A stretch of 64,000 nucleotides of DNA. Origin: Polyangium fumosum (GTDB lineage: Bacteria > Myxococcota_A > Polyangia > Polyangiales > Polyangiaceae). The stretch lies in assembly GCF_005144585.1 (NCBI RefSeq), contig NZ_SSMQ01000040.1, forward strand, positions 1 to 64,000, in the 5' to 3' direction. The position numbers were made by a program, and so were the translations under genes. A model generated the notes under the pieces. It saw only the letters and a program-made list of their open reading frames with translations. It made no database searches and had not been told where the DNA came from. This document shows positions 4,725-42,787 of the stretch, piece by piece. Positions within the stretch are counted from its first letter, which is position 1. Each line of letters begins with the position of its first letter.

Positions 4725-6089
4725 TCAAGGCACCATCGTCGCCGCCACATGCGTCACATTCGCCACCCCGGGCACCGCCGCCAGCGTCGCCTGCGCCCCA
4801 TTCACCCGCGCATGTTTCAGCGTCCCGCCCGTCGTATACACGATCTCCGCGTCGGCCCCTGACAACCCCGGGAGCACGACCGGCATGGAGGACGGCGTCT
4901 GCGGGACCTCGATCGTCGTGGCCGCGCCCCACGCCCCGTCCTTTCCGCGCACGAAGTAGATCCCGTCGTTCAGCACGCCGCGATACGCCACGACGAAATC
5001 CCCCGCGGCCGTCGCAGCCACGGCCGGGGAAAGCCCCGTCGTCGCCGTGCCCACGGTCTCCTCCGCAGACCACGTATTCTGCGGGGTGACGAGCTTGACC
5101 ATGCAGATCCGATTGTCGCCTTGCCGCACGTAGAACATGCGCACGTCCTGATCCGCGTCGACGAGCACGAAGGGGCGCAGCCAATTCGCGACGAGCGAGG
5201 TCGGCACCTGCGCCGAAGGCGTCCACGCGCTCCCGGGGCCGATCTTCGCGAGGGAATAAAGGTGCGCGTCGTCGCCCGCATACACCGCGTACACCCCCGC
5301 CGCGCCGTCGCTCGCGAGGGCCGTCGCGCTCGGGCCGAAGGCCTGGAATTGCACCATGCCCGCGGGCATCGGCCCGAACGGGCCAAAGGCGCCGCCCTCG
5401 TGTTGCGCGAAGTAATGCTTGTTGTCCGTGCCGAGGAACGTCATCAGCGTGGCCACGCCGAGCGGGGAAGCCGCGGGCCCATCCTGCGCGAATCCGAAGC
5501 TGCCGACCTTTTGCACGGCCCCGAAGCCCCCGGCCTTCGTCCACGTCGCCCAGAAGAGCTCGTTGTTTTCGGCCGCATTCGCGCTCTGGCGCCGCAGGAC
5601 CGCGACCACGCCCTCCGCGCGGGGCGCGAGCCCGGCCGCGGAGAACTGGAGGTTGATCGAGCCCGTGGCCCAGCCGGCGGCCGGATCGTAATGGGCTTCC
5701 CCCGCGCCCGGGCCCGCGAGCACGAGCATCGTACCCGTGGGATTCCCGCCCCCGGCGCCGCCCGCGCCGCCCGCGCCGCCCATACCGCCCGCGCCAGCCA
5801 TACCGCCCGCGCCAGCCATACCGCCCGCGCCGCCCGCGCCGCCCATTCCCCCGGCGCCGCCGCCGCTGCCGCCCGCGCCGCCCATTCCACCCACGCCGCC
5901 GCTGCCGCCCATTCCGCCATTCCCACCGCCCGCGCCGCCCGTTCCGGTGCTGCTCGCGGAGGACGACGAGGACGAACTGCTCGCGGCGATCGAGGCGCCT
6001 GCCCCGGACGTGAAATCAGGCAACTCGGAGCCTTGCGCGCAGCCGAAGAGGGGGACGAGCGCCGCGAGCGCGACGAGGCGGGGAAGCAT
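4725..6089 (-). CDS. Gly-rich linker lipoprotein with propeller-like domain
   Basis: 454-residue predicted lipoprotein. The signal peptide ends in a lipobox (LVPLFGC, Cys17). Residues about 45-115 are a low-complexity Gly-Gly-Met/Ala linker. The rest looks like a beta-rich, possibly beta-propeller or sialidase-like domain: short strands with recurring W, G and Y (GFGAVQKVGSFGFAQ, PAVAATAAGDFVVAYRG). No catalytic motif is recognised. It probably sits on the outer membrane or cell surface. It is convergent with the DUF4435 gene and does not belong to that operon. Confidence 0.75.
   Translation of the reverse strand: MLPRLVALAALVPLFGCAQGSELPDFTSGAGASIAASSSSSSSSASSTGTGGAGGGNGGMGGSGGVGGMGGAGGSGGGAGGMGGAGGAGGMAGAGGMAGAGGMGGAGGAGGAGGGNPTGTMLVLAGPGAGEAHYDPAAGWATGSINLQFSAAGLAPRAEGVVAVLRRQSANAAENNELFWATWTKAGGFGAVQKVGSFGFAQDGPAASPLGVATLMTFLGTDNKHYFAQHEGGAFGPFGPMPAGMVQFQAFGPSATALASDGAAGVYAVYAGDDAHLYSLAKIGPGSAWTPSAQVPTSLVANWLRPFVLVDADQDVRMFYVRQGDNRICMVKLVTPQNTWSAEETVGTATTGLSPAVAATAAGDFVVAYRGVLNDGIYFVRGKDGAWGAATTIEVPQTPSSMPVVLPGLSGADAEIVYTTGGTLKHARVNGAQATLAAVPGVANVTHVAATMVP
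5738..5945 (-). repeat. Coding low-complexity Gly-Gly linker repeat
   Basis: Nine-base-type repeats, read on the minus strand as variations of GGCGGCGCGGGCGG, encode GGMGG/GGAGG/GGSGG units in the lipoprotein 4725-6089. Similar tracts occur at 2-90, 8700-8935 and 11998-12250. They act as flexible spacers between lipid anchor or tail and folded domain, and their length could change by slippage. Confidence 0.85.
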
Positions 6090-6200
6090 GCGCCAGTTGT
6101 CGCTCGAATCCGCGCTGCGTCAAGATTTCGGATTCGAACCCGAGAGGCGGGCCCGTCCCGGTCATGAAATGGGAGAAGATTCCGCCGCGGCCACTTTCCC

Positions 6201-6211
6201 TTGACGGTCAA
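6201..6211. promoter_or_regulatory. Palindrome TTGACGGTCAA before the kelch gene
   Basis: A perfect 5-1-5 inverted repeat, followed by a third TTGAC at 6216. It lies 25 bp before the ATG at 6237 of the kelch-repeat gene, in the divergent gap shared with the lipoprotein starting at 6089. It could be an operator or a -35-like element; no convincing -10 is seen. Confidence 0.35.
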
Positions 6212-6236
6212 GGGGTTGACGCGGATATCGTCGCGC

Positions 6237-9041
6237 ATGCGTACGACTTTCATTTTTCGTCACCTCGCCCCTGTTCTCCTCGTCGTGCCGCTCGCCGCCG
6301 CGCTCGGGTGCAATGGCGCCGAGGCCCCGCCACGTCGCGCCGCGGCGCACGGCCTCGGCGAGGCCGCCTCGGCGCTCACGGCGCCACGCTGGGACGTGGC
6401 CCCGCCCATGAACGTCGCCCGGAGCGGGCACACCGCGACACGTTTGTCCGATGGCAAGGTCCTTTTGGCCGGCGGAGGGAGCGCGACGGCCGAGGTGTAC
6501 GACCCGGCCACGAATGCATGGACGCTCGTCGCGCCCATGGCGACGGCGCGCACGCGCCCGACGGCGACCCTGCTGCCGAGCGGGAAGGTGCTCGTGGCCG
6601 GCGGCAACACCGACGCCGTCGAGATCTACGACCCCGCCACGAATACGTGGATGCCCGCCGCGTCGCTCCTCGCGCAACGCGAACGTCATACCGCGACGCT
6701 GCTGCCCGATGGCCGGATCCTCGTGGCCGGCGGCGAATTCGAGGGGTGGATGTTGAAGACGAGCGAGATCTACGATCCCGCCACGGATACGTGGACCGCC
6801 GCGGCGTCGATGGCGCGGGAGCGCACCTCCCACACGGCGACGCTGCTGCCGAACGGCAAGGTCCTCGTGGTGGCCGGGATGGACGAAGGCGGCGACCCGC
6901 TCAAGGCCGTGGAGCTCTACGATCCGGCAACGGACACGTGGGCCCCCGAGGGCGCGGTCGAGAATCGCTACAACCACACCGCGACGCTGCTCGGGAATGG
7001 CAAGGTGCTCGTCGCCGGCGGATACACCGATTACGGCGGGGAGGGCTACCAGGCCCCGAACCGCAGCGCGGAGCTCTACGATCCGGCGAGCCAGGCCTGG
7101 TCGGTCGTGGCGCCGATGGGCGTCGTCCACGAGCTGCACACGGCCACGCTGCTCGCCGATGGCCGGGTGCTGGTCGCGGGCGGCGGCGCGACCGTGGAGG
7201 CGTACGATCCGGCGACCGGGAGATGGTCGCTCGGCAAGTTCCTCCATACGAACCGGAGCGACCACACGGCGACGGCGCTCGCGGACGGGCGTGTGCTCGT
7301 GGCCGGCGGCGGGAGCACGAGCGTCGAGCTGCTCACGCTCGCCCCCCCGGGCGAGGCTTGCCTCTTCGCGGGCGAATGCGCGAGCGGCTTCTGCGTCGAC
7401 GGCGTCTGCTGCAATGCCGCGTGCGACGCGGGCGCGTGCGACGCGTGCGCGGTGAGCGCGGGCGCGTCGGCGAATGGCACGTGCACGCCGCTGAGCGGCG
7501 CCGTGTGCGGGAGCGCCGACGGGTGCACGGCAAACGGCGTCTGCGAGGCGGGTGCGTGCGTCGGGGCGATGCCGGTCGGCTGCCAGTTCGGGTGGACGCC
7601 GGCCGGGAGCATGCCCGTGCCTCGGCAAGCAGGCACGTGGGCCGAGCTCGCGGACGGCCGCGTGCTCGTGGCCGGAGGGTACGACAACAACTGGACCGAT
7701 ACGCTCTCCGCGCACCTCTACGATCCGGCGACGAACGCCTGGAGCGACGTCGCGCCGCTCTCGCAGGTGCGCCGCAGCGCCGCGTCGATCCGGGTCTCGA
7801 CCGGCGAGATCCTCGTCGTGGGCGGGGATGGGCCTTCGACGGCCGAGGTCTTTGATCCGGCGAGCCAGACGTGGACGCTCACCGGTTCCATGGTCGCGCA
7901 CCACGATGTGAGCGCCGCTCTCGTGCGGCTCCCCGACGAGCGGATCCTCGTCGCGGGCGGCGGGACGGACGTCGCCGAGCTTTACGATCCGGCGACGAAA
8001 GCATGGACCGCGACGGGCTCGCTCTCCGTTTCGCGCGGGGGGGCCTCGGCGGTGCTCTTGCAAAACGGGAAGGTGCTGGTGAGCGGCGGCGCGGGGGATC
8101 CGGCGACGGCGGAGCTCTACGATCCGGCCACGGGGACTTTCTCCCCGGCCGGGACGCTGACGTTCGCGCATGCCGGGCACCAGGCGACGCGGCTGCTCGA
8201 CGGCCGCGTGCTCGTGGTGAGCGGCAATGGCGCCGATCGATATGACCCGGCCACGAATGCGTGGACGCCGACGCAGGCGTTGCTGATGCCGCCCGCCGAG
8301 TTCACGGCGACGCTGCTCGGCACGGGTCGGGTGCTGGTCACGGGCGCGCAGAACATCCCGCACGCGCAGGTCTACGATCCGGCGACGAACGACTGGACGG
8401 TGACCGGGCCCCTGGACGTCGCGCGCCGACGTCACACGGCGACGTTGCTCGGAAATGGCCTGGTGCTGATCGCGGGCGGCACGGAATGGGGAGGCGGCAA
8501 CCAGTGCGACCTCCGCAGCGCCGCGGTGTACAACCCCGCGACGAATGGCTGGTCGACGGTGGCGGCCATGGGCAAGACCCGCCGTTACCCGTCCGCCGTG
8601 CAGCTCGAAGGCAATCGTGTCCTGGTCTTCGGGGGGCTCCTGGGCAGTTGCTCGTCCGGCGACGGCGACCCCGAGGCCCACGGAAGCGCGGAGATTTACG
8701 AGGGCGGCGTCACCCCGGAGGGCAGCGGCGGAAGCGGAGGCGTGGGCGGCGCCGGGGGAATGGGCGGCGCGGGTGGAATGGGCGGCGAGGGTGGAATGGG
8801 CGGCGGCGCCGGCGGCGCGGGTGGAATGGGCGGCTCCGGCGGCGCGGGTGGAATGGGCGGCGCCGGCGGTTCCGGCGGTATGGGTGGCGTGAGCGGCACC
8901 GGCGGCGCGGGCGGCGCCGGTGGCGACGAGGTGCCGGGCGGCGGCTGCCGCGCCGCAGCCGGATCCATGGAGAACAGCGGAAGGGGACTCGCGGCCCTCG
9001 TGGCCCTGGGCGTCCTCTTCGGGCGCCGCCGCAAGCGCTGA
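6237..9041 (+). CDS. Kelch-repeat surface protein with lipobox and MYXO-CTERM-like tail
   Basis: About 934 residues. I prefer ATG 6237 (MRTTFIFRHLAPV), since it gives a compact signal peptide ending in LAAALGC; a TTG 36 bp upstream is in frame. The body is about ten kelch/galactose-oxidase-like repeats of the form GRVLVAGG..ELYDPAT..W, forming one or two beta-propellers. They are interrupted at about residues 375-440 by a Cys-rich segment (GECASGFCVDGVCCNAAC). After a Gly-Gly linker the protein ends GGGCRAAAGS, a hydrophobic stretch (LAALVALGVLF) and GRRRKR. That tail resembles the MYXO-CTERM sorting signal. Having both an N-terminal lipobox and such a tail is unusual. It is probably exposed on the cell surface; its ligand is unknown. 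Confidence 0.85.
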   Translation: MRTTFIFRHLAPVLLVVPLAAALGCNGAEAPPRRAAAHGLGEAASALTAPRWDVAPPMNVARSGHTATRLSDGKVLLAGGGSATAEVYDPATNAWTLVAPMATARTRPTATLLPSGKVLVAGGNTDAVEIYDPATNTWMPAASLLAQRERHTATLLPDGRILVAGGEFEGWMLKTSEIYDPATDTWTAAASMARERTSHTATLLPNGKVLVVAGMDEGGDPLKAVELYDPATDTWAPEGAVENRYNHTATLLGNGKVLVAGGYTDYGGEGYQAPNRSAELYDPASQAWSVVAPMGVVHELHTATLLADGRVLVAGGGATVEAYDPATGRWSLGKFLHTNRSDHTATALADGRVLVAGGGSTSVELLTLAPPGEACLFAGECASGFCVDGVCCNAACDAGACDACAVSAGASANGTCTPLSGAVCGSADGCTANGVCEAGACVGAMPVGCQFGWTPAGSMPVPRQAGTWAELADGRVLVAGGYDNNWTDTLSAHLYDPATNAWSDVAPLSQVRRSAASIRVSTGEILVVGGDGPSTAEVFDPASQTWTLTGSMVAHHDVSAALVRLPDERILVAGGGTDVAELYDPATKAWTATGSLSVSRGGASAVLLQNGKVLVSGGAGDPATAELYDPATGTFSPAGTLTFAHAGHQATRLLDGRVLVVSGNGADRYDPATNAWTPTQALLMPPAEFTATLLGTGRVLVTGAQNIPHAQVYDPATNDWTVTGPLDVARRRHTATLLGNGLVLIAGGTEWGGGNQCDLRSAAVYNPATNGWSTVAAMGKTRRYPSAVQLEGNRVLVFGGLLGSCSSGDGDPEAHGSAEIYEGGVTPEGSGGSGGVGGAGGMGGAGGMGGEGGMGGGAGGAGGMGGSGGAGGMGGAGGSGGMGGVSGTGGAGGAGGDEVPGGGCRAAAGSMENSGRGLAALVALGVLFGRRRKR
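8700..8935 (+). repeat. Coding Gly-Gly-Met/Ala linker before the C-terminal tail
   Basis: Repeated GGTGGAATGGGCGG and GGCGGCGCGGG units encode GGAGGMGG-type residues separating the propeller from the Cys + hydrophobic + Arg tail of the kelch protein. Confidence 0.85.
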
Positions 9042-9052
9042 AGCGCGAAGGA

Positions 9053-9092
9053 GGCCCCGCGATGTTCCGCTGCTGCGGGCCATCGCGGGGGC
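9053..9092. terminator. GC-rich hairpin between convergent genes
   Basis: GGCCCCGCGATG (9053-9064) pairs with CATCGCGGGGGC (9081-9092) with one mismatch around a 16-nt loop. It occupies most of the 63-bp gap between the convergent genes ending at 9041 and 9105. There is no T tract, so it could slow or end transcription in both directions but is not a classic intrinsic terminator. Confidence 0.4.
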
Positions 9093-9104
9093 TTCGCGGG
9101 GGGA

Positions 9105-12100
9105 TCACCGAATCGTGATCGCGAGCTTGTAATCGAACACGGCGATGGGGTTGCCCGGCGTCGCCGAGAAGGGCGAGGCCTGCACGAGCAGGTAGTACGT
9201 GCCGCCCGCGAGGTTCTTCGCGAACGCATGCGGCGGCGTCGCGCCGAGGCCGTCGATCGCCGAGCAATACCCGCGACCGCCGTCGTCGTCCACGCCGAGC
9301 TCCAGGCCCGTCGCATCGAAGAGCATCAGGTAGCTATCGATGGGATCGGCCCCGTTCGCGCACGACTCCGCGGCCGTGCCCTCGATGATCTCGGCCCGGA
9401 GCGACTTGCCCGCCGGGACCGTGATCTCGAAGTAATCGTCATCGTCGAAGGCCATGTGCAAGCCCGAGACGACCGTGTCCCAGCCCGTCATCCCGGTCGC
9501 TTCGGCCTGCTGGTTGTTCGGCTCGTTCTCGGGGCCGCCGTCGGCGAGCACCTTTGCCCGCAGCATGTACGAGGCGATGGTCCCATCGTTGTTCGCCTCC
9601 TCGACGCCGACGTAATACACGCCCGCGGCGAGGTTCAGCGTGAGCGCCGAGCAGGTGCCCTCGCCGCTCACGTTGTCCGTTTCGAGGAGCACCCCGGCGG
9701 CATCGAACAGGTTCAGCGTCGACGTGAAGCCGCAGCCGATGCCCGTGTCGTTCAGCGTCTCGAGCACGAGCGCCGCGTCCGCCGCGAGGTCGATGCGGAA
9801 GAGGTCGACGTCGCCGGCCACGGCGATCGAGCCGACCACGTTGGCGCTGCCCGTGAGCAGCAGGCCGGCGTCCGCCTGGGCCGTCGAGTTGTTCGGTTCG
9901 ATCTCGCCCAGCACCTCCAGCGCGCACATGCCGGAGCAGCCGTCGCCGTCCATCAGGTTGCCGTCGTCGCAGGCCTCCGTGCCGTCGAGCAGGCCGTCGC
10001 CGCAGGTCGGGATGCGATCGCAGGTCGCCTCGCAGCCGGCGCCGCCGTCGCACTCCTCGCTGCCCTCGACCACGCCGTTGCCGCAGGTGGACTCGATGGC
10101 CATTTCGAGCAGGTAGCCCGGGATGACCGTGTTGTTCTCGAAGTCCTCGACCTTGACGAAATACGTGCCCGGGGCGAGGCGCCGCGCGCCCGCGTGCGTC
10201 TTGCCCGAGATGCGCGAGCAGATGTTGATGCCGCCGTCGTCCGCGTTCGCGAGCTCGGTCGTGCCGTCGGGGCCGTAGAGCGTGATCACGGTGTCGAGCG
10301 GCAGCGCGCACGAGCCGGGGCCGTTCGCGTCGTACGTTTCGAGGCGGATGTCCGAGGTCGCGCTCAGCGTGAAGCTGTGGAAGTCGATGTCGCTGCCCGG
10401 GTTGATCGCGCCGCTGACGATCGCGTACGGCGTGAAGGGGCCGCTCGCGGTCGCCGAGGTGTTGTTCGGCTCGATCTCCGGCGTCGACTCCTTCATGCAC
10501 GTAGCGTCGCAGCCGTCGCCGGGCGTCGTGTTGCCGTCGTCGCACGTCTCGGGCGCGTCGATCTTGCCGTCGCCGCAGACCGCGATGCGATCGCACGTCA
10601 TCGCGCAGTTGGCGCCGCCGTCGCACGCCTCGGCGCCCTCGACCTTGCCGTTGCCGCACGTCGCGTCGAGCGTGACGAGCAGGCGGTAGCCGGGGATCTC
10701 GTTGTTGTTGAGGAAGTCCTCGACCGAGACGAAATACGTGCCCGCCGGCAGGTGCCGGGCCGCGCTGTCGCCGGGCTTTTTCGAATCGATCTTGCCGCAC
10801 GCGCCGAGGCCGCCGAGGTCACGCTCGAGCAGGACCGTGGTGCCGTTGGTGTCGTAGAGGCGGAGCAGCGTGTCGACGCCGACGCACGAGCCGGGGCCGT
10901 TCACGTCGAACGACTCGACCGTCAGATCACTCGTCTGGTCGAGCTTGATCGCATAGACGTCGACGTCGGTCGCCGGGGTGATCGCGCCCTGGTAGAGCAC
11001 GGGCGGGGCGAAGCCGCCGGACGCCTGCGCGCTCGTCTCGTTCGGCTCGGTCTCCATGAGGATCGACGTCTCGCAGGTCGCGCTGCAGGTGTCGCCGTCC
11101 ATCGTGTTGCCGTCGTCGCAGGTCTCGGGCGCGTCGACGAAGCCGTCGCCGCAGACCGGGACGCGGTCGCACGTCGCCGCGCAGCCCGCGCCGCCGTCGC
11201 ACTCCTCGGCGCCGCTCACGGTGCCGTCGCCGCAGAGCGCGTCGTACGTCACGGCGAGCTTGTAGCCAGGGATGGTCTTGTCGTTGCCGGTCTCCTCGAC
11301 CTTCACGTAGTACGTGCCCGCCGGGAGGTGCCGCAGCGCCGCGTTCGCCGTGCCGTCGAGGCGCGAGCACGCGTTCGTGCCGTTGTCGTCGTCCGAGGCG
11401 ATCACCGTGGTGCCGTCGGACCCGTAGAGCGTGACGAGCGTGTCGATGTTGAGGCAGCTCGTGGGGCCACTCGCGTCGTAGGTCTCGATGTGGAGATCGA
11501 CCGTGGCGGGCACGGTGATCTGGTACCAATCGGCGTCACTGCCGGGGGTGATCGCGGCGCTGATCAGGACGCCCGGCGAGAACGGGCCGTTCGCCGTGGC
11601 CGTGTTGTTGTTCGGCTCGGTCTCCGTGAAGGTGTCGACCACGCACGTCGAGCTGCAGCCGTCGAGGTCCTTCGTGTTGCCGTCGTCGCACGCCTCGGTG
11701 CCGGCCACGATGCCGTCGCCGCAGGTCGTGTTGCACGCGCTCGGCTGACCCGTGCAGGTCCAGCCGTTCTCCAGGACGCACGCGCTGCAACCGTCCATGT
11801 CCGTCGCGTTGGCGTCGTCGCACGCCTCGGCGCCAACGACGATGCCGTCGCCGCATTCGCTGACGCACACGCTGGGCGCGCCCGCGCACATCCAGCCCGC
11901 TTCCTGCGCGCACGTGGCGTCGCAGCCGTCGCCGGCCGTGGTGTTCGCGTCGTCGCATGCCTCGGCGCCGGTCAGGTCGCCGTCGCCACAGACGTCCATC
12001 GAGCCGCCCATGCCGCCTTGGCCGCCCATGCCGCCCATGCCGCCGCCGCCTTGGCCGCCCATGCCGCCTTGGCCGCCTTGGCCGCCCATGCCGCCGCCGC

Positions 12101-33378: not shown

Positions 33379-34217
33379 CAGAAGGTTCCTCGAAGGCCCA
33401 CGAATCCGCCGCCGATCGTCGGGGCAAACTCCAGGCGGGGCATCGCGCTCTTCTGTTCGTCGGTCGGCTTGGGCTTCGACACGAAATACACGACCGCCGC
33501 CGCCCCCAGGAGGGCGAGCGACGCCCCGGCCGTGATGTCCGCCGCCAAGAGCTTCGTACGCACGGGATCCACCGCCGCGTCCGTGCAGCGCGGCGCGCAC
33601 GATGCTTCGAGGTCCGATTTCGCCGAGAGCGCGAGGAGCCCGATCACCCCGGCCGCGCCGAGCCCGAGGAGGCCCACGCCGCCGATCACGATCGGCGCGA
33701 TCGGCACGCCGCTGCCCTTCTCGCCCTCGGGCGAAGGCTCCGGGGCCTTCGGCTCCTTCTTGAACGACGCCTCGATCCGCACGAGTTTGTCCCCCTCGTG
33801 CACGATCACCTTGCGGGTCACGGGCTCTGCGCCGTCCCGCTCGAAGCGCAGCACGTGCTCGCCGGGATCCATCGGCATGGCCTTCCCATCGAGCCGATCG
33901 CGCACGAGTTTGTCCCCCTCGAACACGCGCACGTCCGCCGTCTCGTCGCCCTTGTCGTCACGCGCGACGATCACCACGGTCGGCAGGCTCTTCTCGATCT
34001 CGGCGAGCCACTCGGCGCAGTCGCCGCGCACCACGCGCGGGCAGGTGTTGTCCGAGCAGACGAGCGCCGCCTCGCGCGCCTGCGCGAGCTTGCCTTCCTT
34101 GCGCAGCGACTGCGTTTGCTCGTACGACGCCACGCACTCTTTTTTCGTCGTGGCAGACGCGGGGGCCACGAGCGGGATCGTCGCTGCGGCGAAGAAAACA
34201 AGGGCTCGGGTCTTCAC
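33378..34217 (-). CDS. PEGA-like membrane protein, partner of the second kinase
   Basis: 279 residues from GTG 34217, which overlaps the kinase stop by 4 bp (GTGA). The signal peptide (ALVFFAAATIPLVAPASA) is followed by a short helical Cys-containing part (KLAQAREAALVCSDNTCPRV). A PEGA-like segment comes next (TVVIVARDDKGDETADVRV; MPMDPGEHVLRFERDG), then a Pro/Glu linker and two membrane helices (IVIGGVGLLGLGAAGVIGLL; SLALLGAAAVVYFV). The layout matches the protein at 27537-28550. It probably lies in the envelope and works with the coupled kinase. Confidence 0.8.
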   Translation of the reverse strand: MKTRALVFFAAATIPLVAPASATTKKECVASYEQTQSLRKEGKLAQAREAALVCSDNTCPRVVRGDCAEWLAEIEKSLPTVVIVARDDKGDETADVRVFEGDKLVRDRLDGKAMPMDPGEHVLRFERDGAEPVTRKVIVHEGDKLVRIEASFKKEPKAPEPSPEGEKGSGVPIAPIVIGGVGLLGLGAAGVIGLLALSAKSDLEASCAPRCTDAAVDPVRTKLLAADITAGASLALLGAAAVVYFVSKPKPTDEQKSAMPRLEFAPTIGGGFVGLRGTF

Positions 34218-35707
34218 AAACACTCCGGCTTGATGCGGCGGATCCCCTTCGCGTCGATGGTGTACGGCGGGCTGCAGCCCTCCGCGCGGGGCGCCGTCTT
34301 TCCGCTCGTCGTCGTCGCTGTCGCCGCGCCCGTCGGCGCGCTCTTCGCCGTCGATCGCGGCGTCGCCGCCGTCGTCGCGACGGGCGCGCTCGTGCTCGCC
34401 GTCGTCGTCTCCGGGGGCGCGGGCGTGACCGTGGGCTCGGGCGGCTTTGCAGACGCGCTCGCCGTCGTCGCGGCGCTCGTGGGCGCGACCGGCTGGATCC
34501 CCGTCGCATGCTCCGCGCGCCCTCGATCGAGCCAGAGCACGGCGGCGCCTCCGAGCGCGACGACGAGCACGGCGGCCGCGAGGATCACGACGGATCGAGG
34601 AAGCGCCACGGATTGCGGCGCATGGGGCACCGCGATCCCCGAGACCTGCGAGGAGCGCATCGCCGACGGCATGCTCGCCGCGTCCACGCTCCCGTCGTGC
34701 GACGCCGGCAACGGCACGTCCGCGTCCGACAGCGACGCGTTCTCGATTGCTTGCACCTCGCGCGCGCGCCGCGTGATCCCCTCGGGCGCCACCTGCGCGA
34801 GCCACTCGCCGACCTCCCATGCGGGGGCCGGCGGCACCGCGGCTTCGAGCGCCATCGCCATCTCCCGCGCGGTCTGGAAGCGCTCGGCCGGATCCCGCGA
34901 CAGCCCTCGCATCACGACGGCTTCGAGCACGGGCGGCACCTCGACGCCTATCTGTTTCAGCGGCGGGATCTCGTTCATCGTCACCTGCGCGATGATCGCG
35001 AGCTCGCTGTCGCCGTTGAACAACCTGCGCACCGCGAGCATCTCCCAGAGCACGATGGCCGCGGCGAACACGTCGACGCGCCGGTCCACGCGACTGCCGT
35101 GCTTGATCTGCTCCGGCGCCATGTACGCGTATTTCCCTTTGAGCTCGCCCTCGCGCGTCACCTGAGCGCGGCCCATCGCCTTCGCCACACCGAAGTCGAG
35201 CACGCGCGCCGTCCCCTCGGCGCTGATGATCACGTTCTGCGGCGACACGTCGCGGTGCACGATCCCGAGCGGCTCACCGCGCTCGTCGACGGCCTCGTGC
35301 GCGGCGTGAAGCCCGTGCAGCACGCTCGTCATCACGCCCGACACGATCTTCAGCGCCGGCCGCTGCGACCCGTCGCGCTCCATGTTCCGGAGCACGCGCG
35401 CGAGGCTCTCGCCGTGCACGTAGTCCATCACGAGCAAGAGCTCGCCGCCCTCGGCGATCATGTCGAGGATCGGCACCACGTTCGGGTGCTTGATCCGCGC
35501 GGCGAGGCGCGCCTCGTCGAGGAACATCGTGCAGAACTCGGGGTTCTTCGCGAACTGCGGGTGCAGCCGCTTGATCGCGACCGTCCGCGCGAACCCCGAC
35601 GGCCCGAGCAGGCGCCCGAAATGGACCGTGGCCATGCCTCCCGACGCGATCTCGCCGTAGAGGGCGTACCGACCGACCTTGCGCGCGCCCGCGTGCCCTC
35701 CTGTCAT
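34214..35707 (-). CDS. Hanks-type Ser/Thr protein kinase with membrane segment
   Basis: 497 residues. The kinase domain (about 10-275) is complete: GEIASGGMATVHFG, VAIKRLHP, HRDVSPQNVII, DFGVAKA and MAPEQ. After a linker comes a membrane helix (SVVILAAAVLVVALGGAAVL) and a long Thr/Ala/Pro-rich extracytoplasmic part, ending with a Cys-containing tail (CSPPYTIDAKGIRRIKPECL). First gene of a three-gene coupled operon with the PEGA-like and LamG genes. It is probably paralogous to the kinase at 26193-27536, although gene order in the two modules differs. Confidence 0.93.
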   Translation of the reverse strand: MTGGHAGARKVGRYALYGEIASGGMATVHFGRLLGPSGFARTVAIKRLHPQFAKNPEFCTMFLDEARLAARIKHPNVVPILDMIAEGGELLLVMDYVHGESLARVLRNMERDGSQRPALKIVSGVMTSVLHGLHAAHEAVDERGEPLGIVHRDVSPQNVIISAEGTARVLDFGVAKAMGRAQVTREGELKGKYAYMAPEQIKHGSRVDRRVDVFAAAIVLWEMLAVRRLFNGDSELAIIAQVTMNEIPPLKQIGVEVPPVLEAVVMRGLSRDPAERFQTAREMAMALEAAVPPAPAWEVGEWLAQVAPEGITRRAREVQAIENASLSDADVPLPASHDGSVDAASMPSAMRSSQVSGIAVPHAPQSVALPRSVVILAAAVLVVALGGAAVLWLDRGRAEHATGIQPVAPTSAATTASASAKPPEPTVTPAPPETTTASTSAPVATTAATPRSTAKSAPTGAATATTTSGKTAPRAEGCSPPYTIDAKGIRRIKPECL

Positions 35708-35755: not shown

Positions 35756-38700
35756 TTACCCACCCTTCTTCTGCCGCGCCTTCCAGGCCCAGAACGCCTT
35801 CGAGCTTCCGCTGCGCTTCCCCTTCGCCTTCCCGCTCCCGCGCGCCTTCTTCTTCGGCGCCTCGTCGAGCGTGACGAACCGCGTGGGCGCGCCGCCTCCG
35901 TGGGTTTGTCCTTCCTCGGTCAACGACACCCGCTGGAACTCGATCCACTCCCCGCCCTTCTGGAACGAGTCCGAGCGCACCTCGCAGAGCCCTGCGCGCA
36001 CGAGCCCGTTCACGAGGTGCTCGAACGAGCGCCGATCGAGCGACTCGCCGAACGTCTCGCGATGCAGCCGCCCCATCGGCTGCCCGTCCTCGTCGGCGAG
36101 CGCGTCGAGGATCTTCTGGATCGCCGCCGTCTCGGCGCGGCTCGGCTCGCGGAACTTCCTCCCGACGCACCCGTCCGGCGCGCACACGTCGCACACCCCG
36201 CAGGGCCTTCCGTCGTCCTCCTGGTCGCCGAAATGCCGGACCAGGTGCAGCATCCGGCACCCGTGCCCTTCGGCGTACCGGGCCATCTTGGCCAGGTCTT
36301 CCTGCTTGTGCTTCCGCTGCGCCACGTACTCGCCGAGGAAATCTTCGCTCCCCCGCCGGATCCCCCCGTCCGCGTCGAGGATCGCGCCCCCGCTGATCCA
36401 GAGCTTTTCGAGCACCTTCTCGAATTTCTCCGGATCGGACTCCACCCGCGGGGCCAAGGCCTCCTTCGTCTGCGGCCGCGTCCCGAGCGCGGCGAACAGC
36501 GCCGAGAGCAGCGCCGGCTCCGGGTAATCGCGCTCGAAGAAAAACTCGTGCGTCCGTCGATCCGTGAACGAATGCATCAAGATGGCCCGTGACGGCAACC
36601 CATCCCGCCCGGCGCGCCCGATCTCCTGGTAATACGCCTCCACGCTCCCGGGCAGCGCCAGATGGACCACGGTCCGCACGTTCGATTTGTCCACCCCCAT
36701 TCCGAACGCGATCGTCGCGACCACCACCTCGAGCTCCCCGCCCAGAAACGCCGACTGGATCCGGTCCCGCGTCCCCGTCTCCATTCCCGCGTGATATGCC
36801 GCCGCCCCCAGCGTCGTGAGCTCCCGCGCTGTCTCCTCCGCGTGCTTCCGCGTCGGCGCATACACGATCGCCGGCCGCCGCTCCTCCGGCGCCAAAAGCT
36901 TCTTCACCGCGTCCGCCCTCGCCGACGGCGAAAGCTCCACCACCTCGATCCCGATGTTGGTCCGCCGAAACCCGTGAATGAACCGCGCCGCCTCGGACAG
37001 CCCGAGTTCCCGCGCGATATCGTCCTGCACCATCGGCGTCGCCGTCGCCGTCAGCGCCACCACCGGCGCCGGCCGGAGCGAAGGCAACCGTTGCCCCAGC
37101 ATCCGATACTCCGGCCGAAAATCATGCCCCCAATGGGAAATACAATGCGCCTCATCCACGGCGACCAGCGTCGGCTTCCGCCGGGCCAGCATCTCGGGAA
37201 ACCCCGGCACCCGCAACCGCTCCGGCGCCACGAACAAAAAATCCAACCGCCCCGCCAAATACTCTGCACAAGCGGCCCGCGAGCTCTGCCGATCCCGCCC
37301 CGAATGAATCCGCTCCGCGGCAAACCCTTGCGCCCGCAGCTTCCCCACCTGATCTTCCATCAAAGCAATGAGGGGACTCACCACCAGCGTCGTCCCCCGT
37401 CGTGCAATTCCCGGCAACTGATAACAAAGCGACTTCCCGGCCCCCGTGGGCATCACCAAGAGCACATCCTGCCCCTCGGTCACGGCCCGACAAACCGCCT
37501 CCTGATAAGGCCGAAACCCAGGAAACCCAAAACGATCCCTTAAAATCTCCCCCAGCGTCGCATCCGCCCGAACCTCTCGCCGCTCCGCCAGCGGCAACTC
37601 CGCCTGCCCATTCAACACCCGCGCTTGTCCCATACCCTTCCCCACCCCCGCCGAAGCAAACGCCGTCACCTTGCTCGGCACCACCCCCGGATCGACCTTC
37701 CCCTTCTTCCCCACCCCCTCCTTCTCCTTCCGCGCACTCTTCGCGCGAGCCGCCACTGGTTCGAGGCCCGCGGGTGCCGGGGCTTTGGAGGGCCGGGGTG
37801 GTGGGTCCTGTTGTTTGAGGGCCCGCTTTGCGGGCCCGAGTTCGGGGGAACCGCCCCGGCCCTCCAAAGCCCCGGCGCCCGCGGGCCGATCGTCCCCATC
37901 CTGCACCGCGCCCACCACATACTTCACATACGCTTCAATCCCCCGCATGAACGCCTTCAAATCTCCCTCCCCACGCGACAACCTCGCCAAACGCGCCTCC
38001 CATTCCCCGGTCATCGCGGCGCTCTTCACATGCGGATGAACCGACCCCACCAGCAGAATCCCCTTGTCCGTCGCCGCCAAACTCTTCCCCATCCGGACCA
38101 CGTATTCCCGCTTGATCAGCGTCTCGATGATCGCCGCGCGTGTTGCCGGCGTCCCGAGCCCCGTGTCCTTCATCGCGTCCGACAGCTCTTTCTCCTCCAC
38201 CGTCTTTCCGGCCGTCTCCATCCCCGTCAAGAGCGTCGCTTCCGTGTACCGGTTCGGCGGCTTCGTCGTCTTTTTCTCCGCTTTGGCCCCCAGCACCCGC
38301 GCGGTTTTTCCTTCCGAAAGCCCTCGCGGCAGCTTTTGCGCCTCCGCTTCCTCCTCGGCCCCCTCCGCCTCGCCCTTCTTTCTTTTTTTCGGCCCCGCTT
38401 TCGTACCGGCCCCCCCGAGGTCCAGCACCTTCCAGCCCACTTGCTCGACCACCGTCCCCGCCGATCGGAATCGATCCACCGCTTCCGGCGACGTCACTTC
38501 CGTGATCACCGTCGTCGTTCGCTCGATCAGATCCTCGTGCCACGCCGCGAGCAGCCTCCGGCAGACCAGGTCGTAAAGCTTTTGCTCCTCCGCCGACAGC
38601 GATCCGCGCGCGGCCGTCGTCGTCGGCACGATCGCGTGGTGGTCGGTCACCTTCGTGTCATCCACGAACCGCCGCCCGAGCGGCCTTTGCCCCGTCCCCG

Positions 38701-39775
38701 GCGCCAGAAGCCCCTGGTAGTTCCCCTCGATCGTCTTCACCACCGACGGCAGCGTCTGCGCCACGTCCGTCGACAGATGCCGGCTGTCCGTGCGGGGATA
38801 ACTGATCAGCTTGTGCCGCTCGTAAAGCGATTGCGCAAGGTCGAGCGTTCGTTGCGCGCTCCACCCGAACAGCCGGTTTGCGTGTCGCTGCAGCTCCGTC
38901 AGATCGTACAGCAATGGCGACGGGATCCGGCGCGTCTCCGCCGACACCTTCGTGATCACCGCGCGCCCCGCGCTCACCCGCCGCGTGATCCGCCCCGCCT
39001 CCTCCCCGTCCGGCGGCAGCCGCCTCGGTTTTTCCGGGCCGCCTGGTTTTTCCGGGACATCCAGCAGGATCCCCTCGTACCGCCCGTCCGGCCCGTCCGG
39101 CGCTCCTTCCGGCGCGAACGTCGCGCGCACCTCCAGGTAGTCCTCCGGCACGAACGCGCGGATCGCTTGTTCTCGCTCGACCACCATCGAGAGCGTCGGC
39201 GTCTGCACCCGCCCGACCGACAGATCGTGCCCGAGCGACAGCGAGTAGGCCCGTGACAGGTTCATCCCGACGAGCCAGTCGGCTCGGCTCCGCCCGCGCG
39301 CCGCGTCCGCCAGCGCGTCGTAGTCCCGCGCGTCCCGGAGCTTCCGGAAGCCCGTCCGGATCGCGTCCGCCGTCAGCGAGGAGATCCAGAGCCTCCGCAC
39401 TGGCTTGTTGCTGCCTGCGGCGTCGTAGATGTAGCGGAAGATCAGCTCGCCTTCTCGCCCGGCGTCCGTCGCGCAGACCACCCACTCCACGTCCGCGCGG
39501 AGCAGGATCTTCTTCACCACGTCGAACTGCTTGCGCGTCTCCTCCAGCACCGTCAGCGGCCAGGTCGGCGGCAGCATCGGTAGCGTCCGCAGGTCCCAGC
39601 GCTTCCAGGCCGGGTCCATCTGGTGCGGCTGCGCCAGCGCCACGAGGTGACCGATCGCCCAGGTCACCACGTAACCGGCGCCTTCGAGCGCACCTTCGCT
39701 CGCCTTGTTCGCGCCGAGCACGTGGGCGATGTCCCGGGCCACGGACGGCTTTTCGGCGACGACGGCGATGGTCAT
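35756..39775 (-). CDS. topB-recQ: Topoisomerase III-RecQ helicase fusion
   Basis: One 1339-residue frame joins two enzymes. Residues 1-620 are a type IA topoisomerase III: TOPRIM (VVAEKPSVAR; TDAGREGELIF at 103-113) and active-site Tyr326 in LISYPRTDS. Residues about 620-735 are a basic, Pro/Lys-rich linker. Residues 735-1200 are RecQ: RPYQ at 755, Walker A MPTGAGKS 775-782, DEAH 874-877, TATAT, EIGRAGRDG, and zinc cysteines 1173, 1192, 1195 and 1198. A winged-helix-like part and a Lys-rich tail end the protein; no clear HRDC domain is seen. RecQ and topoisomerase III jointly dissolve double Holliday junctions, so a fused enzyme for recombination repair is expected. Codon use shifts around the joint. 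Confidence 0.95.
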   Translation of the reverse strand: MTIAVVAEKPSVARDIAHVLGANKASEGALEGAGYVVTWAIGHLVALAQPHQMDPAWKRWDLRTLPMLPPTWPLTVLEETRKQFDVVKKILLRADVEWVVCATDAGREGELIFRYIYDAAGSNKPVRRLWISSLTADAIRTGFRKLRDARDYDALADAARGRSRADWLVGMNLSRAYSLSLGHDLSVGRVQTPTLSMVVEREQAIRAFVPEDYLEVRATFAPEGAPDGPDGRYEGILLDVPEKPGGPEKPRRLPPDGEEAGRITRRVSAGRAVITKVSAETRRIPSPLLYDLTELQRHANRLFGWSAQRTLDLAQSLYERHKLISYPRTDSRHLSTDVAQTLPSVVKTIEGNYQGLLAPGTGQRPLGRRFVDDTKVTDHHAIVPTTTAARGSLSAEEQKLYDLVCRRLLAAWHEDLIERTTTVITEVTSPEAVDRFRSAGTVVEQVGWKVLDLGGAGTKAGPKKRKKGEAEGAEEEAEAQKLPRGLSEGKTARVLGAKAEKKTTKPPNRYTEATLLTGMETAGKTVEEKELSDAMKDTGLGTPATRAAIIETLIKREYVVRMGKSLAATDKGILLVGSVHPHVKSAAMTGEWEARLARLSRGEGDLKAFMRGIEAYVKYVVGAVQDGDDRPAGAGALEGRGGSPELGPAKRALKQQDPPPRPSKAPAPAGLEPVAARAKSARKEKEGVGKKGKVDPGVVPSKVTAFASAGVGKGMGQARVLNGQAELPLAERREVRADATLGEILRDRFGFPGFRPYQEAVCRAVTEGQDVLLVMPTGAGKSLCYQLPGIARRGTTLVVSPLIALMEDQVGKLRAQGFAAERIHSGRDRQSSRAACAEYLAGRLDFLFVAPERLRVPGFPEMLARRKPTLVAVDEAHCISHWGHDFRPEYRMLGQRLPSLRPAPVVALTATATPMVQDDIARELGLSEAARFIHGFRRTNIGIEVVELSPSARADAVKKLLAPEERRPAIVYAPTRKHAEETARELTTLGAAAYHAGMETGTRDRIQSAFLGGELEVVVATIAFGMGVDKSNVRTVVHLALPGSVEAYYQEIGRAGRDGLPSRAILMHSFTDRRTHEFFFERDYPEPALLSALFAALGTRPQTKEALAPRVESDPEKFEKVLEKLWISGGAILDADGGIRRGSEDFLGEYVAQRKHKQEDLAKMARYAEGHGCRMLHLVRHFGDQEDDGRPCGVCDVCAPDGCVGRKFREPSRAETAAIQKILDALADEDGQPMGRLHRETFGESLDRRSFEHLVNGLVRAGLCEVRSDSFQKGGEWIEFQRVSLTEEGQTHGGGAPTRFVTLDEAPKKKARGSGKAKGKRSGSSKAFWAWKARQKKGG
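37765..37887. repeat. 123-bp palindromic element inside the topB-recQ linker
   Basis: Arms of 37 bp at 37765-37801 and 37851-37887 are inverted repeats matching at 35 of 37 positions. Nested between them is a perfect 8-bp hairpin, GGGCCCGC (37819-37826), loop TTT, GCGGGCCC (37830-37837). The total length of 123 bp equals 41 codons, so the frame is kept. The encoded residues (about 630-670, Pro/Gly/Ala/Lys-rich) lie in the unstructured linker. It looks like a MITE- or REP-type palindromic insertion tolerated in a linker. No target duplication is evident. Confidence 0.82.
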
Positions 39776-39859
39776 GGGCAGCGGCCCCCGGCTCGGGGGC
39801 GGCGCATCATGACAAAGGGGGCGGGGATGGGCAATCCATGCCGCGCTGGGCCTCGCGCT

Positions 39860-40570
39860 TCAGGGCGCGACCGCTTCGCAACCTGGCGCCGGCGGTTCGG
39901 CCGGGAACGACGCGTTCGTCTCCGCGCATACCTGCGTGGGGTTCGTGGGGGGCGGCGGCAGCGTCTCGTCGCAGGGCGCGTTCGCTCGGTGGCTCGGGTG
40001 CCGCGCCAGCGTATCGCAGGCGAACCTCGTCGTGCGCCGGGCGTACGCGAGCGTCCCCTCGATCGTGCGTAGCGTGCTCTCGCCATACGCGAGCTGCTTT
40101 TGATCTCGGGGCGGCGAACGCTCGAGCTCGCTACAGGCACGGAACGCTTCGTCCTCCATGGCGAATGCCGTCTGCGCCATCCGGTCCACGATGCGGATCC
40201 AGTCCGCGTGCTCCTTCGGCGTCGCGCGGAGCAGCCGCTCCAGGAGCTGAAGCTCCTTGGCGAGCGGCAGCCCCCGGCAACCTCGCCGCGACATCGCCCC
40301 GAAATGCTGTGCCCCGCGTGACAGCGTGTTCGTACCTCCTGTTCCTGGCGGATCCGGACATACAGCTCTTGCTTTCGCGCGCAACCCTTCGATCTGCGAG
40401 GGCGTGGTTTTTGCGTTTTCCTGGTCGAGGGAGGTGATCCAATCCGTGGCGGTGCCGAGGGACGGGCCTTCCGGCGGCGTCGTCGTGGCGCGTGCCTGTG
40501 CGCAACCGACGAGCAGGCATGCGAGGACACATGCGATCCAGCGGGTTCCCGTGGAATTCGTGTGCACCAT
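39860..40570 (-). CDS. Hypothetical lipoprotein
   Basis: 236 residues. The signal peptide has lipobox LACLLVGC. The mature part is mainly helical with scattered Cys (AVCPDPPG, RRGCRG, RACSEL, FACDTL, APCDE, QVCAE, PGCEA) and ends with a Pro-rich stretch. No family was recognised. AGGAGG is about 16 nt upstream of the ATG, with a 12-bp palindrome between. It is divergent from the StyA-like gene (176-bp gap) and lies upstream of topB-recQ on the same strand (84-bp gap). Confidence 0.7.
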   Translation of the reverse strand: MVHTNSTGTRWIACVLACLLVGCAQARATTTPPEGPSLGTATDWITSLDQENAKTTPSQIEGLRAKARAVCPDPPGTGGTNTLSRGAQHFGAMSRRGCRGLPLAKELQLLERLLRATPKEHADWIRIVDRMAQTAFAMEDEAFRACSELERSPPRDQKQLAYGESTLRTIEGTLAYARRTTRFACDTLARHPSHRANAPCDETLPPPPTNPTQVCAETNASFPAEPPAPGCEAVAP

Positions 40571-40574
40571 GTCC

Positions 40575-40586
40575 GTGTACGTACAC
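40575..40586. promoter_or_regulatory. Perfect 12-bp palindrome at a translation start
   Basis: GTGTACGTACAC lies 4 bp upstream of the start codon of the lipoprotein gene (minus strand), between its ATG and an AGGAGG at about 40587-40592. It could be an operator, or a hairpin that shortens the effective SD-to-start distance. Confidence 0.45.
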
Positions 40587-40746
40587 CTCCTGGGGCGTGT
40601 CCTTGGGCAGACGTCAGCAATCGCCCGACGTCTTGGACGATGGACCGCCGCCGTGGACGGGTATATCGTGCGTTCCTGATAGGCACGTTTGGGGGCGCGT
40701 CTCGGCTCGTTCGCGACGCAGCCATCCAGCGCAGGAAGGGGCTTCG

Positions 40747-42033
40747 ATGAGCAGCATTGGCATCGTGGGAGCCGGCATCGCGGGGTTGCAGCTCGGATTG
40801 TACCTCCGGAGCCGCGGCATCTCCTGCACCCTTTATACGGACCGATCGAGCGACGAGATCCGATCCTCGCGCCTGCCGAGCACCGCGGCGCTGCTCGGAT
40901 CGACGCGCGCGCGGGATCGCGAGCTCGGCACCAACCATTGGGACGACGCGGCGTTCGGATGTTTTCACGTCGACGTGCGGGTCAAAGGATTGCCCGAGCT
41001 CTCCTCGCAGGGCCGGATCGATCCACCGGCGCTTTTCATCGACATGCGCCTCTACCTCCCCCGGCTGCTCGAAGATTTCGAGGCGCGCGGCGGCCGCGTG
41101 ATCCGCTCCGGCGTCCTTCCGGCGTCGAACCTCGCGCGCCTCGGCGACGCGCACGACCTCGTCGTCGTGGCGACCGGCCGCGGCGATCTCGGCACCGTGT
41201 TCCCGCGCGACTACCATCGTTCTCCCTGGCTCGAACCGCAGCGCCGCCTCTTCGCGGGCCTCTTTCGGGGCATCGATTTTCCACAGGAGCTCGGACTGCT
41301 CTTTCAGATCGTCCCGGGGCACGGCGAAATCTTCGAGAGCCAGCTCCTCACGGCGGAGGGGCCCGTCAGTTGCCTCCTCTTCGAGGCCATCCCTGGCGGC
41401 GCGCTCGACGCCCTCACGCGTGTCCCCTGCGACGACGATCCGCACGTGGTCGAGAGCCTCGTGCTCGATTTGCTGGAAGCGAACGCGCCGAACGTCCATG
41501 CCCGCGTCGATCGCCAGACGTTTCACCTGACGCGCCCGCGCGATTGCATGCAGGCCGCGATCGTCCCGACGGCGCGGCGCGCGTATGTCGAGCTCGGCGA
41601 AGGCCGTTACGCCGTCGCGGTCGGGGATGCCTTCGCCACGCACGATCCCGTGCTCTGGCAGGGCGCGAACGCGGCCTCGCGCAGCGCGTGGGCGCTCGGC
41701 GAGTCGATCGTCCAGGCGCTCGCCGCGGCGCGTCCGCTCGATCGCAGGTTCTGCGAGGGCGTCGACGAGCGGCTCTGGTCCCTCGTCGGCCCTTCGATGG
41801 AGTGGACGAACGCCTTCCTCTCGCCGCCGCCGCCGCACACGATGGCGATCTTCTCGGCGGCGTCGCGGGATCAGCGCATCGCGGACGCGTTCGCCTCGAA
41901 CCTGGACAACCCTGCCTTGCAATGGCGGATCTTCCGCGGCCCCGAGGGCGTTGATGCGTTCCTCGAAGGGTTCCGACGCGCGAAGACCTCGCGGAGCTCG
42001 GGCGTGGTCTCGGTGGCACCGGCCTCTGCGTAG
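40747..42033 (+). CDS. StyA-like FAD-dependent monooxygenase
   Basis: 428 residues from ATG 40747 (GAAGGGG 6 nt upstream). It reads as a homologue of the styrene monooxygenase oxygenase subunit StyA along its whole length: N-terminal FAD motif GIVGAGIAGLQLGLYLR, then TLYTDR, LVVVATGRGDLG, LFRGIDFP, and the second FAD motif GDAFATHDPVLWQGAN. The catalytic region TNAFLSPPPP also aligns. StyA enzymes epoxidise styrene-like alkenes or oxidise indole using reduced FAD from a reductase (StyB). No reductase gene is adjacent, so reduced flavin must come from elsewhere. The true substrate is unknown. Confidence 0.87.
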   Translation: MSSIGIVGAGIAGLQLGLYLRSRGISCTLYTDRSSDEIRSSRLPSTAALLGSTRARDRELGTNHWDDAAFGCFHVDVRVKGLPELSSQGRIDPPALFIDMRLYLPRLLEDFEARGGRVIRSGVLPASNLARLGDAHDLVVVATGRGDLGTVFPRDYHRSPWLEPQRRLFAGLFRGIDFPQELGLLFQIVPGHGEIFESQLLTAEGPVSCLLFEAIPGGALDALTRVPCDDDPHVVESLVLDLLEANAPNVHARVDRQTFHLTRPRDCMQAAIVPTARRAYVELGEGRYAVAVGDAFATHDPVLWQGANAASRSAWALGESIVQALAAARPLDRRFCEGVDERLWSLVGPSMEWTNAFLSPPPPHTMAIFSAASRDQRIADAFASNLDNPALQWRIFRGPEGVDAFLEGFRRAKTSRSSGVVSVAPASA

Positions 42034-42070
42034 CCCCCCTTCCGCCTGCGTGTGGTAGGGTGCGCGCCTG

Positions 42071-42787
42071 ATGCGGCGCCGCCTCGAACGAGTCCTCTTG
42101 CTCCTCGGGCTGCTCGCCCTTCCGCTCGTGCTCCTGCGCCTGCCGGCCGTGCGTAACGCGCTCGTCTCGCTCGTCGGGTACATGCGCGAGGCGGGCGCGG
42201 CCGGCGCCCTCCTGTTCCTCGGCGTCGAGGTCCTCGCCCTCGCGATCACCACGCCCCTTTGGGTCATGTCGGGCCTCGCGGGGTACGCGTATGGCTTCAG
42301 CAAGGGAATGATGATCGCGTGGCCGGCCGTCACTCTCGGCGTTTGCCTTTGCTTCCTCTTCGGCCGCGCCTCGATCGGCAAGCTCCTCTCGATGCGCGCG
42401 GGCGAGGCCCATTTCTGGCGCGCCGTCGAGCGCGCCGTCCGCGCCGACGGCTTCAAGATCACCTTCCTCCTGCGCGTCACCTTCGCCTTTCCGCAGAACA
42501 TCGGGACGTACATGCTCTCGGCCACGCCGCTCTCGCTCCGTGAATTCGCGGCGGGCTCGTTCCTCGGCCTCTTGCCGGCCACGCTTTTTCACGTTTACGT
42601 CGGCGCGAGCGTGGAGAGCGCGGCCGCGTTGCTCTCGGGGGAGGCCAAGGCGCCCGGGTCGCTCGGCTGGATCACGCTCGTCCTCGGATTCGTCGTGACG
42701 CTCGGCGCGCTCGTCGTCACCTCGCGGATTGCGCGCCGCTCCCTGGACAAGGCGCTCGCTGCACCCTCGCAAGCGGCGGAGCCCTGA
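42071..42787 (+). CDS. TVP38/TMEM64 (VTT/DedA-type) membrane protein
   Basis: 238 residues with about five or six hydrophobic segments. The VTT/SNARE-associated domain is recognisable from GLAGYAYGFSKGMMIAW, FLFGRASIGK, FLLRVTFAFPQNIGTYML and GSFLGLLPATLFHVYVGAS. Members sit in the inner membrane and include lipid scramblases or flippases. The stop overlaps the next gene by one base (TGATG), so it is co-translated with the HEAT-repeat gene. It starts 37 bp after the StyA-like gene on the same strand and may belong to the same transcript. Confidence 0.87.
   Translation: MRRRLERVLLLLGLLALPLVLLRLPAVRNALVSLVGYMREAGAAGALLFLGVEVLALAITTPLWVMSGLAGYAYGFSKGMMIAWPAVTLGVCLCFLFGRASIGKLLSMRAGEAHFWRAVERAVRADGFKITFLLRVTFAFPQNIGTYMLSATPLSLREFAAGSFLGLLPATLFHVYVGASVESAAALLSGEAKAPGSLGWITLVLGFVVTLGALVVTSRIARRSLDKALAAPSQAAEP

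Follow-up and report, generated by a model that had tools for sequence, protein, structure and literature searches.

RecQ unwinds or branch-migrates DNA and topoisomerase III (TopIII) passes single strands, and the question raised by a locus of Polyangium fumosum is what these two enzymes do when they are encoded as one polypeptide. The locus lies in a stretch of 64,000 nucleotides (contig NZ_SSMQ01000040.1, positions 1 to 64,000), which is called the window here. Read as an open reading frame, the gene occupies 35756-39775 on the minus strand, starts with ATG and encodes 1339 amino acids with zero internal stops; from the N- to the C-terminus, its product comprises a complete TopIII, a 115-residue linker, a RecQ helicase, a zinc domain and an RQC-like winged helix. 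We propose that it is a natural single-chain TopIII-RecQ machine, which would have arisen by one old fusion, been spread or inherited since then, and lost its TopIII half several times, and we put the probability of this reading at roughly 0.6.

The initial annotation had described a complete TopIII and a complete RecQ core in this frame, and the Pfam search agreed. All the features given below lie on the minus strand. In the N-terminal half, Toprim (PF01751) covers residues 5-133 (39377-39763), and the type IA catalytic domain Topoisom_bac (PF01131, E 1.2e-106) covers residues 152-610 (37946-39322). The codon of the active-site Tyr326 (38798-38800), which had been named correctly together with the helicase motifs and zinc cysteines, lies in a YPRTD motif aligned with YPRSD of E. 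coli TopIII, and its column is invariant in 25/25 aligned fused TopIII parts. This half exceeds the TopIII cut-offs of NCBIfam topB (544 bits, cut-off 516) and PRK07726 (644, cut-off 597), while its topA_bact score (185 bits) is under the cut-off of 456; it is a member of the TopIII subfamily and not TopA. The model of residues 1-628, with a predicted local distance difference test score (pLDDT) of 88.8, matches E. coli TopIII (1d6m) with Z 45.5 and a root-mean-square deviation (rmsd) of 3.0 over 584 aligned residues, and E. coli TopI with Z 34.8. E. coli TopIII (TopB) thus has the same fold, Toprim and YPR(T/S)D active site, whereas the window's TopIII is fused to RecQ and falls in a distinct clade. 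Only small gaps appear in the 1d6m alignment at the presumed position of the decatenation loop, and the length of this segment is variable among relatives. Passages of PMC4109787 attribute decatenation insertions of its own to E. coli TopIII.

In the C-terminal half, Pfam detected the RecQ DEAD domain (residues 755-915, 37031-37513), Helicase_C (residues 954-1059, 36599-36916) and RecQ_Zn_bind (residues 1152-1198, 36182-36322). In an alignment of 51 RecQ parts, where the window row begins at residue 730, Walker A (775-782) is invariant in 51/51 save Ala779, as are DEAH (874-877) and the four zinc cysteines (1173, 1192, 1195 and 1198) without exception. The recQ_fam score of 378 bits is over the RecQ-family cut-off of 219.8, and the best solved-structure matches of the fusion are E. 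coli-type RecQ and TopIII. The model of residues 730-1339, built with 51 relatives, has a mean pLDDT of 91.3, and its residues 8-578 match the Deinococcus RecQ core with Z 40.5, rmsd 5.4 and 454 of 501 target residues aligned. Pfam gave no match to HRDC or RQC in the window protein at E<=1. After the zinc domain, however, the model contains three helices and two strands which align structurally with RecQ cores (about residues 1213-1285, 35921-36139), and an RQC-like winged helix, recognized by fold only, is present in this predicted structure despite the missing Pfam match. Helicase, zinc domain and RQC winged helix are therefore common to the fusion and the RecQ cores of E. coli and D. radiodurans. 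Unlike bacterial RecQ, the fusion has TopIII in front, is without HRDC in the window's lineage, and carries an extra small domain between helicase and zinc domain (about residues 1087-1141, 36353-36517), predicted from the secondary structure of the model as winged-helix-like with three helices and two short strands; the region of this insert takes up about 86 residues in the window protein versus about 21 in E. coli RecQ by alignment. As a side observation, the stretch at 36353-36517 aligns across fused and stand-alone members.

The fusion is not confined to Polyangium. Of 557 related stretches found in a scan of a genome collection, the 79 best loci were kept, and 32 of these encode both halves in a single frame. 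Their hosts include Polyangium, Byssovorax, Enhygromyxa, other Myxococcota, Acidobacteriota and Oligoflexia, as well as single metagenome-assembled genomes labelled as other groups, for which binning or naming errors are possible. The natural fusion suggested by the initial annotation is thus intact and conserved in several genera and in more than one phylum. Of 39 kin genomes (38 relatives in addition to the window's own), 12 carry it, namely all 6 of the genus together with G008, G019, G020, G023, G024 and G033; one of the fusions within the genus is cut by contig ends, and that of G024 sits in a single-contig assembly of 12.2 Mb. In G008, G019 and G020, the fusion is the sole RecQ at E<=1e-30 and the sole TopIII found. 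A stand-alone TopIII was found in three of the 39 (G022, G029 and G034), the one in G022 being 43% identical to the window's TopIII; another frame of G022, on contig C253, was set aside as TopA-like on inspection. Separately, contig C210 of G033 contains two short type IA topoisomerase-like stretches (L282) without a match to the window's TopIII half.

Wider surveys gave a similar picture; their samples overlap, so the counts are not to be added. In the window's phylum (140 genomes), a TopIII-class match over 280 bits occurs in 74 genomes and is fused in 20 of these, where the TopIII-class counts and the cross-match of both searches were made by hand: 18 fusions are the same frame in both searches, G127 was recognized by its locus, and G113 is cut by contig ends. 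One further candidate carrier, G158, was discarded since it is not fused on inspection. In the phylum of an Acidobacteriota carrier (L045; 199 genomes), TopIII was found in 19 genomes and fused in 5, among them L207 and L189, the latter being the genome of L066, which is also fused among the 79 loci.

The initial annotation had counted a lack of split copies as support, and this applies to TopIII alone. The window's genome has two type IA topoisomerases, the fusion and a TopA-like protein on contig C132 (27% identical, 131 bits), and no other TopIII was found in this genome. Likewise, 49 genomes were searched for TopIII, and each of the 26 with the fusion showed that TopIII only. In the phylum survey, 18/20 carriers have no stand-alone TopIII beside the fusion, while two (G118 and G162) do. 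Two RecQ-family matches over the cut-off are present in the window's genome, the fusion and a RecQ on contig C77, which carries HRDC and falls outside the fused RecQ clade in the tree, and no other RecQ at E<=1e-60 was found in 11/20 phylum carriers among the candidates scored, which were ten per genome at most. A stand-alone TopIII class of about 910-1065 amino acids, drawn from G118, G162 and other genomes of the phylum and mostly 37-42% identical to the window's TopIII, recurs in several families.

Measured against the Polyangium locus L040, the ratio of nonsynonymous to synonymous substitution (dN/dS) is lowest in the insert plus zinc domain (0.03), followed by the helicase (0.07), TopIII (0.16) and the linker (0.56), which indicates that both halves are under purifying selection and that the linker is laxer. 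The linker (residues 626-740, 37556-37900) is half Pro, Ala, Gly, Ser or Thr and 18% Lys or Arg, and it holds in-frame ATG/GTG codons, which are candidate internal starts for RecQ alone. Its length ranges from 21 to 144 residues with a median of 60 in 44 rows, which include the window's own gene three times and two same-genome pairs. Such a variable length and lax sequence are as expected for a tether. In addition, the TopIII-half and RecQ-half distances of 40 fused proteins correlate with r 0.76, against a highest value of 0.17 in 1000 permutations, as expected if the halves stayed together, to which shared host ancestry would add.

The trees, which are quick ones, are consistent with a single origin. 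Identity to the window's TopIII is 52-65% for fused members from other genera, with the exception of the long-branched L055 (37%), and 37-46% for the stand-alone TopIIIs fetched, part of all found. In a TopIII tree of 107 rows, 46 fused-class rows, of which 44 are fused and 2 are truncated at contig ends, group in a single clade with a Shimodaira-Hasegawa-like approximate likelihood ratio support of 99, and 0/56 stand-alone TopIIIs fall within it; this tree took in 9 of the 14 stand-alone TopIIIs from the 199-genome survey, left out L055 and five near-identical fused rows, and was flagged because long branches come together at the TopA outgroup and Listeria. L055 joins the fused clade with a support of 92 in a separate tree. 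In a RecQ tree of 126 rows, all 42 fused RecQs, including two same-genome pairs, lie inside one 71-row clade (support 100), whose other members are 26 stand-alone RecQs and 3 truncated at contig ends, and the remaining 55 rows contain zero fusions. Forcing the fused RecQs into a clade of their own was rejected by the approximately unbiased test (p-AU 2e-50, 41 versus 31 rows, with L099 and the long-branched L055 left out). A TopIII-class match is missing from 22 of 23 genomes whose fused-clade RecQ was not found in fused form, and the remaining one (L110, L198) seems to carry a fusion interrupted by contig ends; incomplete genomes are evidently included, as 2 of the 22 lack any type IA match. 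A freed TopIII of the fused clade was not found among the loci examined, except at contig ends. The simplest reading of these trees is that a single old fusion was followed by repeated loss of the TopIII half, which would have left the stand-alone RecQs. The same TopIII and RecQ clades may instead have been fused repeatedly, as gain and loss are not distinguished by counting changes and the loci were drawn from a list ranked by similarity.

The HRDC domain, which is frequent in RecQ helicases but not required of them, divides the family. Pfam detected it in 46/51 RecQ parts, and the C-termini of the other five, as read, lack it: the window protein, Polyangium L040, Byssovorax L041, Oligoflexia L055 and the stand-alone L094. 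Accordingly, 23/27 fused rows of this alignment carry HRDC. Six further kin fusions were considered, of which L250, L251 and L252 belong to genomes already counted, while L253, L254 and L255 are new and lack HRDC, giving 23/30 distinct fused proteins with the domain. The C-terminal tail of the window protein (residues 1291-1339, 35759-35905) terminates where the first helix of HRDC starts in most relatives, and no HRDC was seen downstream in another frame (three frames of about 600 bases). The absence of HRDC from the window's RecQ part had thus been observed rightly, whereas its suggested replacement by the topoisomerase does not hold in general, as 23/30 fused proteins examined have both. 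HRDC was therefore probably ancestral in the fusion and lost in the Polyangium-Byssovorax line and elsewhere, as judged from its distribution. According to sections of PMC4109787, BLM needs HRDC for double-junction dissolution.

What is known of the two enzymes lends the fusion its interest. As described in parts of PMC13244152, PMC7140829, PMC8191776 and PMC4109787, RecQ stimulates TopIII in vitro, and RecQ-family helicases join TopIII in dissolution as separate partners. The eukaryotic dissolvasome (Sgs1-Top3-Rmi1; BLM-TopIIIalpha-RMI1/2) likewise pairs a RecQ helicase with TopIII (passages of PMC4109787 and PMC8191776), though it consists of separate subunits together with Rmi1, whereas the fusion is one chain with a bacterial-type TopIII; the comparison with BLM-TopIIIalpha offered by the initial annotation is reasonable in the sense of "works like". 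The partnership which that annotation took for granted is well founded in eukaryotes and disputed for E. coli, where stimulation in vitro is reported but neither physical interaction nor lasting genetic support, according to parts of PMC7140829 and PMC13244152. PMC8191776, in the passages concerned, counts E. coli TopIII among those forming complexes with RecQ. According to the review PMC4109787, contact between the catalytic domains of RecQ and the topoisomerase remained to be established. Because the partnership is disputed in E. coli, a conserved fusion is notable. No description of a natural TopIII-RecQ fusion was seen among the open-access titles and abstract openings listed for our queries, not all of which were aimed at fusions. 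The component enzymes are known, and their natural single-chain arrangement would be new. Bennett and Wang reportedly engineered yeast Top3-Sgs1 fusions in 2001, which join the same two partners on one chain but are artificial, while the window's fusion is natural.

Taken together, TopIII (N-terminal) would have been joined to RecQ (C-terminal) once, by a flexible linker that now measures 21-144 residues. The ancestral C-terminal half would have comprised helicase, winged-helix-like insert, zinc domain, RQC-like winged helix and probably HRDC, and the fusion may then have descended or spread via Myxococcota and Acidobacteriota, with a few genomes labelled as other phyla. In the proposed mechanism, RecQ would unwind or branch-migrate joint DNA, such as converging Holliday junctions, D-loops or late replication intermediates; unwinding would expose single strands, which the tethered TopIII would cut and pass, and the final step would be decatenation of the hemicatenane. 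The covalent tether would do the job of the subunit contacts in eukaryotic complexes and make the pairing obligatory. Its likely role, by inference, is to couple unwinding to strand passage when it acts on intermediates of recombination or replication, while sequence cannot tell whether the double Holliday junction or the late replication intermediate is the main substrate. A bolder proposal, which we rate at somewhat under an even chance, is that TopIII and RecQ are obligately combined in one polypeptide throughout a whole bacterial lineage, i.e. as a bacterial dissolvasome older than, or spread among, the Myxococcota and Acidobacteriota carriers, in which TopIII would depend on the helicase and loss of TopIII, not its freeing, would be tolerated.

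Several observations weigh against the proposal of a conserved single-chain machine. The RecQ half scores 440 bits with the RecQ equivalog TIGR01389, under the cut-off of 640, so it is a RecQ-family member and not of the E. coli type. No TopIII was found in 24/39 kin genomes, among them, tentatively, G032, which has a contig-end fragment only (34% over 253 residues). The 26 rows in which a fused-clade RecQ stands alone mean that this RecQ is not dependent on TopIII everywhere, and the window protein belongs to the 7/30 fused proteins without HRDC. Furthermore, E. coli results in parts of PMC13244152 (2026) indicate that RecG, not RecQ, works with TopIII.

The alternative that survives best is that the fusion works chiefly in replication and not in recombination: RecQ would open precatenanes or the final stretch between forks that converge, and the tethered TopIII would unlink the daughters, with double Holliday junctions being minor substrates. 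A cited title on E. coli (Suski and Marians 2008) would speak in its favour, and a part of PMC7140829 describes E. coli TopIII as working at the fork. HRDC, which is tied to double-junction dissolution in BLM, is lost in the window's lineage, and this loss leaves room for a late replication intermediate as the main substrate there; however, the domain is kept in 23/30 fused members examined, and we regard this alternative as unlikely though worth serious weight.

It is less probable still that the fusion merely ensures equal amounts and joint delivery of two independent enzymes without mechanical coupling. The long, variable and poorly conserved linker would suit such an arrangement, as would the many genomes in which the RecQ half is alone, but the fused-clade TopIII is never apart from RecQ in the loci examined, contig ends excepted, which makes us doubt it strongly. 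Reverse gyrase joins a superfamily 2 (SF2) helicase and a type IA topoisomerase on one chain, in the order opposite to that of the fusion, which raises the idea of a chain altering supercoiling with ATP. The general plan is the same, and reverse gyrases turn up when the model of the TopIII half is compared with solved structures (Z up to 32.4); however, both halves of reverse gyrase come from other subfamilies, the halves of the fusion are far closer to E. coli TopIII (Z 45.5) and RecQ cores (Z 40.5), topoisomerase comes first in the fusion, and its TIGR01054 score of 91 bits is far under the cut-off of 472, so that this idea is very improbable. Finally, the joining of two genes by assembly or sequencing error or a frameshift, which the initial annotation had considered, has a negligible chance and is refuted by the conservation of the join across genomes (single-frame in 32/79 loci, and present in the single-contig 12.2 Mb assembly of G024) and by purifying selection on both halves, and nothing was found in its favour.

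As for the surroundings, the downstream neighbour (34214-35707, minus strand) encodes a Ser/Thr protein kinase (Pfam Pkinase, E 1.1e-33). An upstream frame of 936 amino acids (39772-42582, minus strand) overlaps the start codon of the fusion; it is Arg-rich and without a Pfam match, is probably a shadow frame, and an operon with it was therefore dropped. No conserved gene neighbourhood was found, each flanking family being shared with at most 3 other loci among 32. Spread by mobile elements found no support either: no single place covering 80% of the query was seen among the 85 phage and at least 5000 plasmid records matched. In Listeria portnoyi (L100), recQ and topB (4965-6746 and 8100-10385) lie on the same strand about 1.35 kb apart, which is a further hint that the two enzymes are linked in bacteria.

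In most of the other bacteria in which it occurs, the fusion is the only topoisomerase III, and it makes the disputed bacterial partnership of RecQ and TopIII testable. With both enzymes on one chain, it lends itself to structural and single-molecule studies, and the contribution of HRDC can be tested by comparing natural members that have this domain with those that lack it. Kept under selection, the fusion is genomic evidence that the RecQ-TopIII pairing is real in bacteria other than E. coli.

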